Origin: a virus
Length of the DNA: 42,960 bases
Virus record (IMG/VR): IMGVR_UViG_3300035670_000452
Coordinates: 1-42,960 of that record
Strand: one strand, 5' to 3'
This document shows positions 23,356 through 37,632 of this stretch, piece after piece (position 1 is the first letter of the stretch; each line of letters opens with the position of its first letter). Below the pieces are notes generated by a model. That model did no database searches, was not told where the DNA came from, and was given only the letters and a program-made list of their open reading frames with translations. The translations under genes and the position numbers were made by a program.

Positions 23356-24846
23356 ATGCCCGCGAAGCTCGAAGAAATCACCGCTACCTACCTCCGGGAG
23401 CGGTTCCGCTGGGACGACGTGGCAATCGTCGCGTGCTGGTGCAACGGTGAGATCAGCGATGAAATCGCGGTCAAGGTCACCTGCGACCCGGACGAGTTGA
23501 AGCAAGAGCAGGAGTACCGATGGCTGGGCCGCTGGACGACACACGCAAAGTACGGACGGCAGTTCCACGCACAGTCGTTTGTATTAAAGCTCCCGCACGG
23601 CCGGACTGGGGTTATCAGTTATCTTCGCGACGCCGGTGAGGGGCTGGGCTTCGGAGCCGCGCGGGCCGCCAGGTGCTGGGAGGAATACGGATCGGACGCG
23701 GTACTGGTCTGCAGGGAGCGGCCGGGCGACGTGGTGGCCATGCTGGCGGCCCGCAAGCTGCCGATCACCGCGGAGAACATGGGGCTGATCGCGGCCAAGC
23801 TGACGGAGGACGCGGCCCTGGAAGCCTGCACGCTGGACCTGCTGGACGTACTGACCGGCCGCGGGTTCCCCAAGGCCACGGTGAGGGAGTGCGTTCGAGC
23901 CTGGGGCAACCGGGCCAGCCAGGTGGTGAGGCGTGACCCGTTCAAGCTGATGCGGTTCCGAGGCTGCGGATTCAAGCGGTGCGACGCAACCTGGCTGGAG
24001 TTGGGGTTGTCGCCGACGCGGTTGAAACGGCAGGCGTTGGCCGCGTGGTACAGCATCGCGAGGGATACGGACGGCCACACGTGGTTCGGCGACCTGCAGG
24101 CCGTGCGCGGTGTCGAGATGAGCATTGCCGGGGCTGATGTGAAGCCGGAGAAGGCACTGCGGCTGGCGGTCCGCGGCAAGGCTTTGGCGGAAATCAGGAC
24201 CGATGGGCCGAGCGGACCGGTGGCGACGGACGGGAAGACGCGGTGGGTGGCCGAGTGGAAGAAGGCACGGAACGAGGGAGAGTTGGCGGCGTTGGTGGCG
24301 GATGCGCGGCGCGAGGCCGTATGCGATGCTCTGGTACTCTTCCGTACCATTGTCGGATTTGATGGATACCGAGTATCGACCGACGGAGCGATTGAAAGCT
24401 GCTGGTCCAACAGCGGAGGCATGCGCGAATATTGGAAGGAGGTATCGCTGGAAGAAATCAAGGGTGGATACATGCGAGTTCGATTGCGTGTTGCCCTAAG
24501 GGAATACGTTCACGCGCAAGTGTCGCATCTTGTTCTTGAAACATTCGTAGGAAAACGGCCACTGGACGCTGTTTGTTGTCATCGCGACGGAAACACGAAG
24601 AACAACGCGTTGAGAAATCTTAGGTGGGACAGCAGACCAGCAAACGAAGAAGACAAAAAGCTTGTCGGAACGCATCAAACTGGAAGCAAGAACCCGGCTG
24701 CGAAGCTCACGGAAGAAGATGCAATTAAGATCCGCAGCATGTACGACGTTGGCGACGTGAGCACGTATCAACTTGCCAAGAAATTTGGCGTTGATCGAAG
24801 CATCATAGCCGATATCGTCAACCGGAAACTGTGGAGGCATGTATGA
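23356..24846 (+). CDS. RecD2-type helicase N-terminal part fused to HNH endonuclease
   Basis: A 496-residue protein. Residues about 1-320 resemble the N-terminal region of RecD2-type helicases (YRWLGRWTTHAKYGRQF early on, RDPFKLMRFRGCGFKRCD near 194-211), without any ATPase motif. From about residue 327 the sequence becomes a NUMOD4-HNH homing endonuclease: IVGFDGYRVSTDG, then VHAQVSHLVLETFVG, CCHRDGNTKNN and NLRW, ending in a NUMOD-like HTH. There is no plausible start codon for the HNH part in this frame, so it is made as a fusion. The helicase core continues in a separate gene that overlaps the stop by 4 bases in another frame. The insertion is visibly less GC-rich than its surroundings. 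Confidence 0.8.
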   Translation: MPAKLEEITATYLRERFRWDDVAIVACWCNGEISDEIAVKVTCDPDELKQEQEYRWLGRWTTHAKYGRQFHAQSFVLKLPHGRTGVISYLRDAGEGLGFGAARAARCWEEYGSDAVLVCRERPGDVVAMLAARKLPITAENMGLIAAKLTEDAALEACTLDLLDVLTGRGFPKATVRECVRAWGNRASQVVRRDPFKLMRFRGCGFKRCDATWLELGLSPTRLKRQALAAWYSIARDTDGHTWFGDLQAVRGVEMSIAGADVKPEKALRLAVRGKALAEIRTDGPSGPVATDGKTRWVAEWKKARNEGELAALVADARREAVCDALVLFRTIVGFDGYRVSTDGAIESCWSNSGGMREYWKEVSLEEIKGGYMRVRLRVALREYVHAQVSHLVLETFVGKRPLDAVCCHRDGNTKNNALRNLRWDSRPANEEDKKLVGTHQTGSKNPAAKLTEEDAIKIRSMYDVGDVSTYQLAKKFGVDRSIIADIVNRKLWRHV

Positions 24847-26228
24847 GCTGGCCACTTCCGATCGATCTTGCAGACAGGGTGTCGGATCACCAGCGAGCGG
24901 AATATTGGAAGGCAACACAAGGAACAATTGGCATCCTTGGCGGTGGGCCGGGATGTGGGAAAACGTTTCTGGTTGGTGCAGTAATTGAAGCGTTGGCAAA
25001 ATCAACTGGCCTGAACCAGATCGCAATCGGGGCACCCACGGGCAAGGCCGCCGTCCGCGTCACAGAAACTCTCAGCACCCACGGAATCCCCCTCCGCGCC
25101 CGCACGTGGCACAGCTTACTCCGTGGCGGCACAGACGGCGGGTTCCTCTACACGACCGGCAACCCGCTTCCGTATCGCGTGCTGATCGGCGACGAGAGTA
25201 GCATGGTTGATCTTGATTTAATGGCCAGCATTTTCCGGGCCCGGGCGCAAGGAACGCTCGTCCTCCTGGTTGGCGACGTGAACCAGCTTCCGCCAGTCGG
25301 CCACGGGGCACCGCTCCGTGATCTGATCGCGGCCGGGCTGCCGTGCGGAATCCTGGAAGAGATCAAACGCAACAGCGGTGGCATCGTCGAAGCCTGCGAC
25401 GCGATCCGCCGCGGCAAACGCTGGACCTGCGGGGACAACCTCCGGCTGGTGGATTGTTCGACCCCGGACGGGCAGATTGCCGCGATGCTGGCCAATATCC
25501 ACGCCGCACGCGTGGCCGGGGCCGATCCGATCTGGGACTGCCAGGTGGTCTGCCCAGTTAACAAGAAGTCACCGCTGGCCAGAAAAACGCTCAACGGGAT
25601 CCTCCAACGGGAGTTGAACCCGCGCGGAGAAACCGCCGGAGGCTCGCCGTTCCGCGTTGGTGACAAGCTGGTCAATTCCGCCAATGGCCGGTTCCCAGTT
25701 GTGGATTTCGACAGCACAGATCCAGAGGCAGACGTGAGCGATCGCGGAGAGGCGTATTGCGCAAATGGCGAACTCGCCAGAGTGCTGCACGTTGAGGATC
25801 GGTTGACGATCGTTCAACTCGACAACCCCAAACGAGTCATCAAGATTCCGCGAGGCAAAACTACATCCCCAGCAGGAAGTGAAGGAGAGTCCCAAGAGCA
25901 AGCCGGGGCCGGCGACGACGATCAGCCGGATAAGACCGGAACCGGCTGCTCCTGGGATCTGGGGTACTGCCTCAGCGTCCACAAATCCCAGGGCTCGGAG
26001 TGGCCCACGGTGCTGGTGATGCTGGACGAATACCCGGGGGCCCGCATGGTGGCAAGTCGTGAATGGCTCTACACCGCCATCAGCCGGGCCAAGTCTCAGT
26101 GTGTGCTGATCGGGAAGAAGGCCACGGCCGACGCGATGTGCCGGAGGCAGGCAATCTGGCAGCGGAAAACGTTGCTGAAGGAACGGCTGTTGGTCGAGGT
26201 CGCCAAGAGGGAGCTTGCGGAACTATGA
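24843..26228 (+). CDS. RecD2-type helicase, SF1 core (split C-terminal part)
   Basis: A 461-residue ATP-dependent DNA helicase core. ATG 24843 overlaps the preceding stop (ATGA) and follows GGAGG by 5 bases. Walker A ILGGGPGCGKT (31-41), Walker B IGDESSMVD (about 115-123), motif III GDVNQLPP, late motifs LSVHKSQGSEW and TAISRAKSQC. It starts with SDHQRAEYW, the segment that normally follows the N-terminal domain directly, so the protein is half of a gene split by the HNH insertion. Function presumably requires assembly with the first product. The first ~60 codons have lower G+C than the rest, possibly co-converted with the HNH gene. Confidence 0.88.
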   Translation: MSWPLPIDLADRVSDHQRAEYWKATQGTIGILGGGPGCGKTFLVGAVIEALAKSTGLNQIAIGAPTGKAAVRVTETLSTHGIPLRARTWHSLLRGGTDGGFLYTTGNPLPYRVLIGDESSMVDLDLMASIFRARAQGTLVLLVGDVNQLPPVGHGAPLRDLIAAGLPCGILEEIKRNSGGIVEACDAIRRGKRWTCGDNLRLVDCSTPDGQIAAMLANIHAARVAGADPIWDCQVVCPVNKKSPLARKTLNGILQRELNPRGETAGGSPFRVGDKLVNSANGRFPVVDFDSTDPEADVSDRGEAYCANGELARVLHVEDRLTIVQLDNPKRVIKIPRGKTTSPAGSEGESQEQAGAGDDDQPDKTGTGCSWDLGYCLSVHKSQGSEWPTVLVMLDEYPGARMVASREWLYTAISRAKSQCVLIGKKATADAMCRRQAIWQRKTLLKERLLVEVAKRELAEL

Positions 26229-26827
26229 CCACGACAACCACCACAACCATCCCCAACCCGCCGAAGCCGCTGACGCTCCCGTGGCGCGTCGTTGTCGACA
26301 CCGCTGAGCAGGCCCCGTTCACGTTCACCGATCTGCGGTCAGATTCCTCGCGCGGCAACCGGCCGCTGATTATTGAGACCGTCCGCCGATCCATTGGTCG
26401 GCATCCCGTGGGCATGGGAGACTACTCCCTGGAATCCGCGGACGGTGTTACCTCCTACGTCGGATGGTGCAACGTCGAACGCAAGAGCCGCGAAGACTGC
26501 CAAACAACCATCCTGGGGTTCGGCGACGGGCACCGAGACCGGTTCGAGCAGGAATTGGACAACTTGAGCCGCCTGTGCATTGGTGGCGGGTGCGCGATGA
26601 TCGTGGTTGAGTGCTCGTTCGAGCAACTGATCTCCACCGCACCGCAGTACGGCCAGAAGACGGCCGGGCAAAACGCCAAGACGCTGTTGCGATCCGTGCT
26701 GGCCTACCAGCAGGACTACCGCGTCCCGTGGCTGTTCGCCGGGAGCCGGCGCATGGCAGAGATCGCGACGTTTAGATTTTTGGAGAGGTTTTGGAAACAT
26801 CATCACGGAAAGGACTCAGCCCAATGA
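26225..26827 (+). CDS. ERCC4-family nuclease
   Basis: A 200-residue protein starting at the ATGA overlap with the helicase stop. VVVDTAEQAPF (Asp25), then NVERKSRED (Glu85, Arg86, Lys87, Asp91) are the active-site motifs of XPF/ERCC4-type nucleases; FEQELDNLSRL and a terminal WLFAGSRRMAE follow. No helicase or helix-hairpin-helix is attached. Such small phage enzymes may resolve recombination intermediates or cut flaps, matching neighbours RecD, RecT and SSB. The Thr run at the N-terminus is simply low complexity. Confidence 0.8.
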   Translation: MTTTTTTTIPNPPKPLTLPWRVVVDTAEQAPFTFTDLRSDSSRGNRPLIIETVRRSIGRHPVGMGDYSLESADGVTSYVGWCNVERKSREDCQTTILGFGDGHRDRFEQELDNLSRLCIGGGCAMIVVECSFEQLISTAPQYGQKTAGQNAKTLLRSVLAYQQDYRVPWLFAGSRRMAEIATFRFLERFWKHHHGKDSAQ

Positions 26828-33001: not shown

Positions 33002-33214
33002 ATGGACACGGACACGGTAACGCGGCTCTCTCTGAGCCGCCGAAACGGTGAGGCGGTGGTTGTTGATGGGCCGGCTTGCGTGCGGGTTCTCGTCAGCAAG
33101 CGGGGGCGTGTGCGGATCCTCGTCGAGGCCCCGGAGTCTACCAGGGTGCGGCGGGAGGAGCTGGATGAGAGGGAGGGGACTCGTGATGCGGCGACGGCAG
33201 AAGACACTATTTGA
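33002..33214 (+). CDS. csrA: CsrA-family RNA-binding regulator
   Basis: A 70-residue protein. LSLSRRNGEAVVVDG aligns with the start of CsrA (LILTRRVGE pattern), VRILVEAPESTRVRREEL with its RNA-binding end (IGVNAPKEVSVHREEI pattern); the important Arg of HREE corresponds to Arg51. CsrA dimers bind GGA motifs near ribosome-binding sites and repress or stabilise mRNAs. Phage GGAG sites, or host flagellar and carbon-storage messages, are possible targets (inference). The extra acidic tail overlaps the next gene by 29 bases, so both are translated together. Confidence 0.75.
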   Translation: MDTDTVTRLSLSRRNGEAVVVDGPACVRVLVSKRGRVRILVEAPESTRVRREELDEREGTRDAATAEDTI

Positions 33215-34373
33215 CGGTGCGCGGCTTCGGTATGACGAGGCCATGTCAATGACGCTCGACTCTCTTCGCGAGTGGGGGGCGGATCACGATACGTGGGTGA
33301 TCGCGTGGAGCGGAGGAAAGGATTCGACTACCCTGTTGACGGTGACGCTGCACCTGCTTGCCGAGCGCGCGTTGCAAGAACCGAAGCGGCTGATTGTGTG
33401 CTATGCGGACACGCGGATGGAGTTGCCGCCATTGGCCACGTCGGCGTCCTGTTTAATCGAGAAGATGCGTCACGATGGCCGCGAGGTGCGAACAGCGATG
33501 GCACCGATGGATAAGCGGTTCTTCGTCTACATGCTGGGCCGCGGAGTGCCACCGCCGAACAACAATACGTTTCGCTGGTGTACGCGACAGATCAAGGTCG
33601 ATCCGATGGCCGATGAGATTCGCAGGACGGTTAAGGACGCTGGCGGAAACGTTTTGATGCTTACCGGGGTGCGGCAGGGCGAGTCGGCAATCCGAGACGG
33701 CCGCATCGCCATGTCTTGCGGCCGGGACGGCGCCGAGTGCGGGCAGGGCTGGTATCAGCAGATGACAGGCGATGGATTTGCGACGTTAGCGCCGCTGCTT
33801 CATTGGCGAGTCTGCAACGTGTGGGACTGGCTGAAGGTCTACGCGCCGATGGTGGAGTATGGAGGCTGGCCGACGACACTTCTGGCTGATGCGTATGGCG
33901 GGGATGAGGCTGAAGAGAAAAACGCACGCACCGGGTGCAACGGCTGTCCGCTGGCGAATCAGGACACGGCATTGGATCAGGTCCTGCAAGTGCCGTACTG
34001 GTCGCATCTGGCGCCGCTGAAGGAGCTAAGGCCGTTGTACCGTGAGTTGCGGGAGCCACGCTGCAGACTGAGGCAACCAGGCGGTGAGACACGACAGGAC
34101 GGGACGCTGGCTCGAAATCAACATCGGATGGGGCCGCTAACCCTAGAAGCTCGGGCGTGGGCATTGGATCGCGTGCTGGACATTCAGCGACGCTGCAACG
34201 TCCCGGACAGGCCACCCGTGGATTTTCTGAATGCAGATGAAGAATCCCGCATCCGTGAATTGATTGATGCGAAGACGTGGCCGCGGAAGTGGAGCGGTGA
34301 CGAGCCGATAGCGTCCGATCCGTACACCGAGGCGGGCCAGATGGCGTTATTTGCTAGTCTCCCAGCCCCTTGA
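33186..34373 (+). CDS. PP-loop/Fe-S protein of PAPS reductase-DndC type
   Basis: A 395-residue protein; GAGGGAGG upstream supports ATG 33186 (GTG 33183 possible). PP-loop SGGKDS at 42-47, WCTRQIK (Cys132), GVRQGES (161-167), and Cys pairs at 178/185 and CNGC (251/254) that could hold an Fe-S cluster, as in DndC of DNA phosphorothioation. No DndB, D or E genes are seen. It may modify phage DNA or RNA sulphur chemistry or counter host defence; a role in sulphate reduction is less likely given the size and the extra cysteines. The family call is firm, the substrate unknown. Confidence 0.75.
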   Translation: MRRRQKTLFDGARLRYDEAMSMTLDSLREWGADHDTWVIAWSGGKDSTTLLTVTLHLLAERALQEPKRLIVCYADTRMELPPLATSASCLIEKMRHDGREVRTAMAPMDKRFFVYMLGRGVPPPNNNTFRWCTRQIKVDPMADEIRRTVKDAGGNVLMLTGVRQGESAIRDGRIAMSCGRDGAECGQGWYQQMTGDGFATLAPLLHWRVCNVWDWLKVYAPMVEYGGWPTTLLADAYGGDEAEEKNARTGCNGCPLANQDTALDQVLQVPYWSHLAPLKELRPLYRELREPRCRLRQPGGETRQDGTLARNQHRMGPLTLEARAWALDRVLDIQRRCNVPDRPPVDFLNADEESRIRELIDAKTWPRKWSGDEPIASDPYTEAGQMALFASLPAP

Positions 34374-36451: not shown

Positions 36452-36750
36452 CACGATTCGAGACGGCCGCGAGGCAGTACACAGCTGAACAATACGCCGC
36501 GTGCTTCGCGCAAGCGACGCCTCGCGTCAAAGCAATCATCGCCAAAGCCAAGGTGCCTTGGCTCAAACGCGGGAAGCTCCGGCGGTTGATCTTCGAGGGG
36601 TTCCGCGAGGGCTACCAGACAGCGGAAGACATGGAGAATTGGCTATGGGATCGCTTGAAGGCCATCGACTGGCAGAACATCTGGAGGATATTCCGAGAGT
36701 ATGTCCTGCCGGTGGTTCAATTTCTGATCCTGATTATCACCATCCTGTGA
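36448..36750 (+). CDS. Small protein with C-terminal membrane anchor
   Basis: A 100-residue protein from GTG 36448. Basic helical body (TPRVKAIIAKAKVPWLKRGKLRR) and a hydrophobic C-terminus YVLPVVQFLILIITIL. Tail-anchored topology suggests a lysis or holin-related accessory. The stop overlaps the next start (GTGA). Not recognised as a family. Confidence 0.5.
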   Translation: MTRFETAARQYTAEQYAACFAQATPRVKAIIAKAKVPWLKRGKLRRLIFEGFREGYQTAEDMENWLWDRLKAIDWQNIWRIFREYVLPVVQFLILIITIL

Positions 36751-36914
36751 GCGAGGCACCGCAAGCCTTTGGCAACCCGCTGGAACGTGCCGCCAATCGG
36801 TACGTGTTCGGCAAGATCATCGCGGTAGTTGAAGCGGCTCGGCCTAAGATTCAGATCGAGGTCAACCGCTGGGTGGACCTGTTGATCGAGAGTTTGAAAG
36901 AGCAAATCAAATAG
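36747..36914 (+). CDS. Very small amphipathic protein
   Basis: A 55-residue protein from GTG 36747, overlapping the previous stop. Sequence begins MSEAPQAFGN and contains VFGKIIAVVEAARPKIQIEVNRW and a basic/acidic amphipathic end. The coupled start and the regular composition favour a real gene. Function unknown. Confidence 0.5.
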   Translation: MSEAPQAFGNPLERAANRYVFGKIIAVVEAARPKIQIEVNRWVDLLIESLKEQIK

Positions 36915-36924
36915 GAGAGCGAAC

Positions 36925-37128
36925 GTGGACGAAGAACTGAAAGCTGCGTGTGCAAAACCACCGATGACCGCCGCCGACGTGGCGGCCCTGCCGAACAGCG
37001 TCAAGCAGATGCTGATCGCTGGACTTGTGTTGCTCAAGCCGTTCCTACACCAGCTCCTGGACGACGGGATTGCCAAGCTCGTGTCCATGCTGGGCGGCAA
37101 CCCCAACCCTCCGATCCCTCCGGCCTAG
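36925..37128 (+). CDS. Small amphipathic/membrane-associated protein
   Basis: A 67-residue protein with GTG start after AGGAG. Central segment MLIAGLVLLKPFLHQLLDDGIAKLV could be a short membrane-associated helix. Ends in a Pro-rich tail (NPNPPIPPA). Possibly part of the lysis group. Function unknown. Confidence 0.5.
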   Translation: MDEELKAACAKPPMTAADVAALPNSVKQMLIAGLVLLKPFLHQLLDDGIAKLVSMLGGNPNPPIPPA

Positions 37129-37144
37129 TCTCTCCTCCAGGGGC

Positions 37145-37219
37145 AAGCCCTGCCGCGGACCGCGCGAAGATGCAATACCCAGGCTTACGAGCCAGGACGG
37201 CCGGCGCGGCAGGGCTTTT
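37145..37219 (+). ncRNA. Large structured hairpin element, terminator or small RNA
   Basis: AAGCCCTGCCGCG (37145-37157) and CGCGGCAGGGCTT (37205-37217) form a perfect 13-bp stem followed by TT, closing a 47-base loop that holds a smaller hairpin GGCT-TACG-AGCC. The outer stem with its short T-run resembles an intrinsic terminator; the unusually large structured loop suggests a processed or functional RNA instead or in addition. It lies between small genes and a holin-like gene. Confidence 0.55.
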
Positions 37220-37236
37220 GAAACGAGGGCGCAAGC

Positions 37237-37632
37237 ATGGATGCACAGATCATTGAAGCAATCAACGACGCTGTAAAAGTGGCTCTTGAGTCGGCGGCCA
37301 AAGACTCATGGGAGTCGATCCTAGTTGCCATTGGCATCATCGTGGCCATCGCCGCGGCGTCGCTGTTTTTTTGGGGCTACGTCAGGACAAACGAGAGCAC
37401 CATCAAGCGGCTATCGGAGCGGATAACGGCACTGGCAGATTTTCAAAGTACGACGCTGCTTGATGTGGTGAAAAACAACGCCATAACGATGTGCAACGTG
37501 TCCGACGTGCTGCGGGACAACACCGAGGCCATCAATGGGCTACGCGACCACCTAGCACAAGCAGATCGCGACTTGCGGGACTTGATGGTCGAGGTCCGGC
37601 AGCGGCCTTGCATCGCAAAGGAAACGGCGTGA
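37237..37632 (+). CDS. Holin-like membrane protein
   Basis: A 131-residue protein with one strong transmembrane segment (about 27-48, ILVAIGIIVAIAAASLFFW), followed by a cytoplasmic or periplasmic coiled coil (ESTIKRLSERITALADFQS to LRDHLAQADRDLRDL). This N-terminal span with a helical tail resembles holin or antiholin-type proteins, though single-span proteins of this kind are hard to classify. Overlaps the next gene start (GTGA). Confidence 0.5.
   Translation: MDAQIIEAINDAVKVALESAAKDSWESILVAIGIIVAIAAASLFFWGYVRTNESTIKRLSERITALADFQSTTLLDVVKNNAITMCNVSDVLRDNTEAINGLRDHLAQADRDLRDLMVEVRQRPCIAKETA

Follow-up and report, generated by a model that had tools for sequence, protein, structure and literature searches.

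A RecD2-type helicase encoded by two adjacent genes, with an HNH endonuclease at their boundary, in a tailed phage

The window analysed here is the whole of a 42,960-base virus record (IMGVR_UViG_3300035670_000452), identified as a tailed phage by its terminase, portal, head protease and tape measure genes. At 23356-26228 it encodes a RecD2-type helicase in two genes (Table 1), as a first-pass annotation made from the letters alone had claimed. In Pfam, ORF1 matched HHH_RecD2 (PF14490, 9e-12) and OB_YrrC (PF23139, 8e-8), both above cut-off, while ORF2 matched AAA_19 (PF13245, 2e-27), UvrD_C_2 (PF13538, 8e-16) and AAA_30; the SH3-like domain SH3_13 (PF18335) scored below cut-off, with an E of 0.04. 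The motifs GGGPGCGKT (Walker A), GDESSMVD, GDVNQLPPV, SVHKSQGSEW and YTAISRAK are kept in ORF2, whose first residues, MSWP, fall at the conserved linker motif. The profile of PHROG 4412 ('exonuclease V') was matched at 46-245 by ORF1 and at 332-653 by ORF2, and because these matches follow in succession, the two ORFs correspond to successive halves of one protein. The helicase belongs to a phage-specific RecD2 subfamily with the signature EI(K/R)RN(S/A)GxIV. Their domains do not all lie on one polypeptide, since ORF1 stops where ORF2 starts in another frame, and the Shine-Dalgarno sequence and 4-base ATGA overlap described earlier for ORF2 are both present. The gene that follows is the same neighbour found after recD2 in two relatives, L009 and L013.

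Table 1. Features of the split recD2 locus in the window, and what lies at the split in related viral contigs.
Feature	Coordinates	Strand	Description and evidence
ORF1	23356-24846	+	496 aa; RecD2 N-terminal module, then in-frame HNH endonuclease
ORF1 RecD2 N-terminal module (OB_YrrC + HHH_RecD2)	23356-24324	+	Codons 1-323; Pfam/PHROG; colinear with one-gene relatives to module end
Low third-position G+C tract	24319-25008	+	HNH and 3' recD2 flank; change-points, permutation test, 31 relatives
ORF1 C-terminal HNH part	24325-24846	+	NUMOD4-like, HNH_3, C-terminal HTH; PHROG 59, PDB 1u3e
Shine-Dalgarno GGAGG of ORF2	24833-24837	+	5 nt upstream of ORF2 ATG; sequence
ATGA overlap	24843-24846	+	ORF1 stop TGA 24844-24846, ORF2 start ATG 24843-24845; sequence
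ORF2, RecD2 SF1B helicase core	24843-26228	+	461 aa from ATG; frame differs from ORF1; Pfam, alignments
Downstream gene	26225-26827	+	Likewise with ATGA overlap; ORF lists; context
L307 (record of L247) gap			Probable GIY-YIG gene; Pfam E 0.014, under cut-off
L276 gap			Dam-type methyltransferase, N-terminus weakly GIY-YIG-like
L017 gap	L017:4830-5005		csrA; Pfam 9e-18; ATGA overlap with core gene just before MIWP
L090 gap			ParB-like protein, 285 aa; phrog_5931
L013, L254, L262 gaps			Small ORFs
L251, L267			DUF6011 zinc-ribbon tail on N gene
L253 (record L306) gap	L306:1-7501		3.2 kb; Cas12u3/Cas12f-like gene and CRISPR array
L009, L287, L296 gaps			Nothing

Elsewhere in the window, an ORF at 62-1345 joins a ParB-like N-terminus to a DNA methyltransferase, a phosphoadenosine phosphosulfate reductase-like gene lies at 33048-34373 (PHROG 12882, 6e-173), and two small ORFs at 36501-37256 have no Pfam match and a third-position G+C near 0.5, far under the rest of the contig.

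ORF1 is a single open frame in which, as had been noted, the N-terminal part runs into an HNH endonuclease. The tail matched HNH families in PHROG (family 59 at 9e-27, also 1492 and 959); in Pfam, HNH_3 (3e-4) fell slightly under its curated cut-off and NUMOD4 (PF07463, E 0.066) was also under cut-off. The best PDB match of this part was I-HmuI (1u3e, 2e-5). Alignment to 1u3e showed that the equivalents of H75, N87 and N96, which we take to be the catalytic residues of the I-HmuI HNH motif, are kept, and that the residue preceding the motif H is C, not D. An internal-start scan found no ATG, GTG or TTG at the beginning of the HNH part; the nearest in-frame start codons are at 24283, 24292 and 24295. 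The HNH protein might also be made alone from 24292 or 24295, which have AGGGAGAG upstream, although this is weakly indicated. A protein scan with the HNH part returned one weak relative. The first-pass annotation had considered that the domain might be a fixed part of the family, and it is not: the HNH is missing from the whole records of 11 relatives and from every intact linker compared. An HNH gene 34% identical to that of the window lies directly upstream of the intact recD2 of L014 (L014:3537-4055). Few HNH relatives were available as input to the fold prediction for ORF1, so the HNH part was modelled with low confidence. ORF1 also had a fold match to a 402-aa protein of Megavirus courdo7 annotated as a RecD2-like HHH domain protein (BFVD H2E9J7), which suggests that the RecD2 N-module also occurs alone in a giant virus.

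Scanning viral contigs with either half as a single query gave nothing usable; one-gene relatives were retrieved from them by means of a seed alignment and degenerate DNA signatures. The relatives recovered from genome contigs were all distant, none exceeding 33% identity. In the one-gene proteins, the end helix of the N-module (W..E....E..A motif) is followed by a short linker, the WP motif and S-x-HQ at the motor start. The N side of the window is colinear with these proteins to codon 322-323 and ORF2 opens MSWP...SDHQ, so the insertion cost about zero helicase residues. Alignment to uninterrupted homologues, the check proposed earlier for locating the junction, thus placed the HNH exactly at the boundary of the two halves, and the intact relatives L289, L290 and L293 read straight across its position with about zero residues lost. 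From the end of codon 323 at 24324 to the conserved core W codon at 24849, the insert measures about 0.52 kb, close to the earlier estimate of about 510 bases, nearly all of it HNH coding sequence. The insertion point is the linker between the N-domain and the core. In an AlphaFold model of intact L293 (mean pLDDT 89, pTM 0.79), which matches Deinococcus radiodurans RecD2 (3GP8, TM 0.60/0.80), the junction is predicted to lie in a coil (319-334) between helices 302-318 and 335-344, and a sequence profile places it where the N-domain gives way to the motor in 3E1S. Direct repeats of 13-15 nt near the insert are off the junctions and look like chance.

Third-position G+C (G+C3) falls from 0.85 over the N part to about 0.53 over the HNH part and 0.44 over the first 55 codons of ORF2, then rises to 0.75. 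Change-points were found at 24319, the HNH edge, and within the core at 25008, the latter with a permutation p<0.001, and the low-G+C tract reaches 165 nt into the core. The G+C3 difference between the first 40 codons of the core and the rest was -0.37 in the window and ranged from -0.17 to +0.13 in 31 relatives. Because none of the 31 has a dip at the core start, the HNH and the 3' recD2 flank probably came together. These limits agree with the lower G+C that had been placed at about 24330 to 25010 and ascribed to arrival with co-conversion of the 3' flank; judged by its composition, the tract is probably a co-conversion tract. On the simplest reading, the HNH and flank would derive from a lower-G+C donor that already carried the HNH at the same place. 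No such donor was found.

Splitting is not confined to the window. Fourteen subfamily members of known state are split and 36 are intact, with at least 8 changes between these states within the subfamily on the tree and 6 on the N-half tree. An interruption scan of both halves found no frame break inside the core or the N-module, only in-frame insertions (L018) and an intein (L294); all gene-splitting breaks found lie in the N-domain/core linker, and the scan thus places them in a concentration there. A bias in break positions is possible, because the relatives were retrieved through core motifs. The majority of a more distant sister group is also split, and in its member L237 the halves are separated by an HNH gene of another type, unrelated to that of the window. 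Splitting of recD2 is recurrent and occurs mostly without a recognisable endonuclease. The L018 insertion, about 55 codons in the core of an intact relative (L018:5453-5619), has overlapping query coordinates that suggest a local duplication. The intein of L294 (L294:2700-3840) is of LAGLIDADG type and sits at the P-loop (GTGK^T) of a relative that is otherwise one gene.

The gaps between split halves hold varied contents (Table 1). The csrA gene of L017 occupies the same position as the window HNH, and L014, 68% identical to L307, has an intact recD2. Zinc-ribbon modules of the form CxxC...GP(T/V)C were seen at the linker in L239 (3380-3560), L013 (4180-4280), L251 (1630-1735) and L267 (6895-6995); in L239 the module is in frame inside the one-gene protein, and in split relatives it forms a tail of the N gene. 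The CRISPR locus in L306 comprises a 381-aa ORF matching Cas12u3/Cas12f models (1e-10), a 168-aa ORF and 14 repeats with a period of about 72 nt. A compact CRISPR locus also lies between the split recD2 halves of L309 (record of L260).

The closest relative of the window for both halves is L009, with 63% identity in the core. The two are sisters (100/98) within a clade of 11, of which 6 are intact. In L009 the break is again in the linker, with no insert or HNH; its N gene ends ...KWPA and overlaps the core gene start by 13 nt. The break in L009 falls after the WP motif, which is in the N frame, and the linker is shortened and frame-shifted, whereas in the window the core frame encodes both WP and the full-length linker.

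We propose that the endonuclease first entered a one-gene recD2 in a donor lineage, splitting the gene there, and that homing-type recombination then brought the HNH, with about 165 bp of the recD2 sequence downstream of it, into the window lineage, under a presumed cleavage specificity of the HNH protein. We give this order of events a probability of roughly 0.55. It is favoured by the uninterrupted L289, L290 and L293 and by the G+C3 shift, which coincides with the HNH edge. Among the relatives, none of the intact alleles found was similar enough to show a cleavage site. ORF1 and ORF2 would now be adjacent, translationally coupled genes: the HNH would be translated as a tail of the DNA-binding N-module, ribosomes finishing at the ORF1 TGA would reinitiate on the ATG that overlaps it and translate the motor core, and the two polypeptides would associate without a covalent link.

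The first-pass annotation had made the HNH the cause of the split. Its position at the boundary stands, but causation is not established: the L009 gene is divided with no HNH present, and in most split relatives no endonuclease can be recognised between the halves, so a split does not require the HNH. A less probable but serious alternative is that recD2 was already split in the common ancestor of the window and L009, and that the HNH entered the gap later as a passenger, the helicase still being two polypeptides. It gains from the break of sister L009 at the same linker and from how common endonuclease-free splits are (L009, L287, L296 and L251). The same ambiguity is on record for seg43(25) at split gene 43, where it is unclear whether the endonuclease was the cause or a later entrant because phage 44RR has the split without seg43(25) (PMC2988022). 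However, the different break points of the window and L009 weaken the case for a shared ancestral split, as does the placement of the pair in a clade with 6 intact members. The imported 3' flank would have overwritten the recipient's own linker, and the deciding part of the gene would thus be gone.

Both halves have been maintained. In a split pair of relatives (L090/L254), dN/dS was 0.145 for the N half and 0.120 for the C half, similar to intact pairs. The N/C distance ratio of the window, 1.46, is within the intact range of 1.29-1.58, and the distances of the two halves are correlated (Mantel r 0.76 overall, 0.82 for split members alone). Taken together, these measures indicate that both halves were kept and inherited together, as two subunits would be. 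With both halves under purifying selection, a helicase made of two polypeptides, as the first-pass annotation had proposed, is very likely. The N-region is already regarded as a separable module in work on RecD2: the D. radiodurans protein retains activity when truncated at its N-terminus (delta150 RecD2Dra), and the RecD2 N-domain is thought to mediate strand switching (PMC12143592). Inactivation of the helicase, with both ORFs as remnants, might be supposed from a single chain having become two and from the HNH tail on the first polypeptide. It is very unlikely, given that ORF1 and ORF2 are full length with helicase motifs kept, that the rate ratio is normal and that in parallel split pairs both halves are under purifying selection.

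An assembly chimaera of two virus strains joined at the HNH is conceivable in a metagenomic record with a sharp composition shift at 24319, but it is highly improbable: the ORF1 reading frame is kept at the precise point of the homologous junction, the tract of low G+C runs on into homologous recD2, and a mechanically similar insertion occurred independently in L307 (a probable GIY-YIG) relative to intact L014.

The least probable reading is that the halves are rejoined, whether through splicing of RNA or protein or through a programmed -1 frameshift, even though a related recD2 may hold an intein (L294, P-loop) and the frames overlap by 52 nt at the end of ORF1: the window gave no Rfam intron match at gathering score and nothing plausible at a relaxed threshold, ORF1 and ORF2 gave no Pfam match to a Hint domain or intein blocks, a frameshift product would still carry the HNH within the helicase, and inspection of the overlap by eye showed no canonical slippery site. 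Because recD2 homology abuts the HNH flush on both sides and leaves no residues to spare, there is no space for a ribozyme or for the two parts of a split intein, in line with the earlier claims that the locus has no room for a group I ribozyme and lacks intein splicing blocks.

More broadly, and tentatively, the interdomain linker of viral RecD2 may be a general landing site: separable subunits would allow repeated conversion to two genes, and the gap would become a protected berth for mobile endonucleases and other cargo, including a Cas12-like CRISPR locus. Phage enzymes split by homing endonucleases are known from single cases in which cause and effect are inseparable. The recD2 gene has been broken at a single joint at least 8 times, and its relatives include both one-gene and two-gene forms for comparison. 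This series allows one to test whether domain linkers set the positions of splits and whether endonucleases cause or follow them, and it makes the role of the poorly understood RecD2 N-module as a separate protein testable. No description of a split phage RecD2 was found in the literature searched, subscription papers being outside its coverage.

The window helicase has the same domains in the same order as RecD2 of D. radiodurans (3E1S/3GP8) and Bacillus subtilis, but it comprises two polypeptides rather than one and belongs to the phage-specific subfamily. By its PDB and PHROG matches, the HNH part resembles I-HmuI-type and free-standing phage NUMOD4/HNH endonucleases; it differs in lacking an intron and in being made as a C-terminal tail on the N-module. 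Fractured genes that carry split inteins and free-standing endonucleases (Dassa 2009, listed in PMC10448857) also place an endonuclease where a phage gene is broken in two; unlike those, the window has no split-intein halves, and therefore no protein splicing. The T4 gene 60/mobA/39 topoisomerase and the gene 43A/seg43(25)/43B DNA polymerase of Aeromonas phage 25 are also split at endonuclease insertions (PMC2988022). These share with the window a replication gene split at an endonuclease but differ in the gene and in endonuclease placement, and the recurrence of recD2 splitting can be counted on a tree. The comparison drawn earlier with nrdA-a/mobE/nrdA-b of Aeromonas phage Aeh1, whose split enzyme is reported to be fully functional (PMC2988022), holds: in both, an HNH homing endonuclease gene lies within an essential DNA-metabolism gene that yields two polypeptides, with no intron or intein. 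In contrast to Aeh1 nrdA, the window gene is a RecD2 helicase broken in an interdomain linker, the first half continues in frame into the HNH, which has no start codon at its own beginning, and recD2 has been split recurrently at that one linker.
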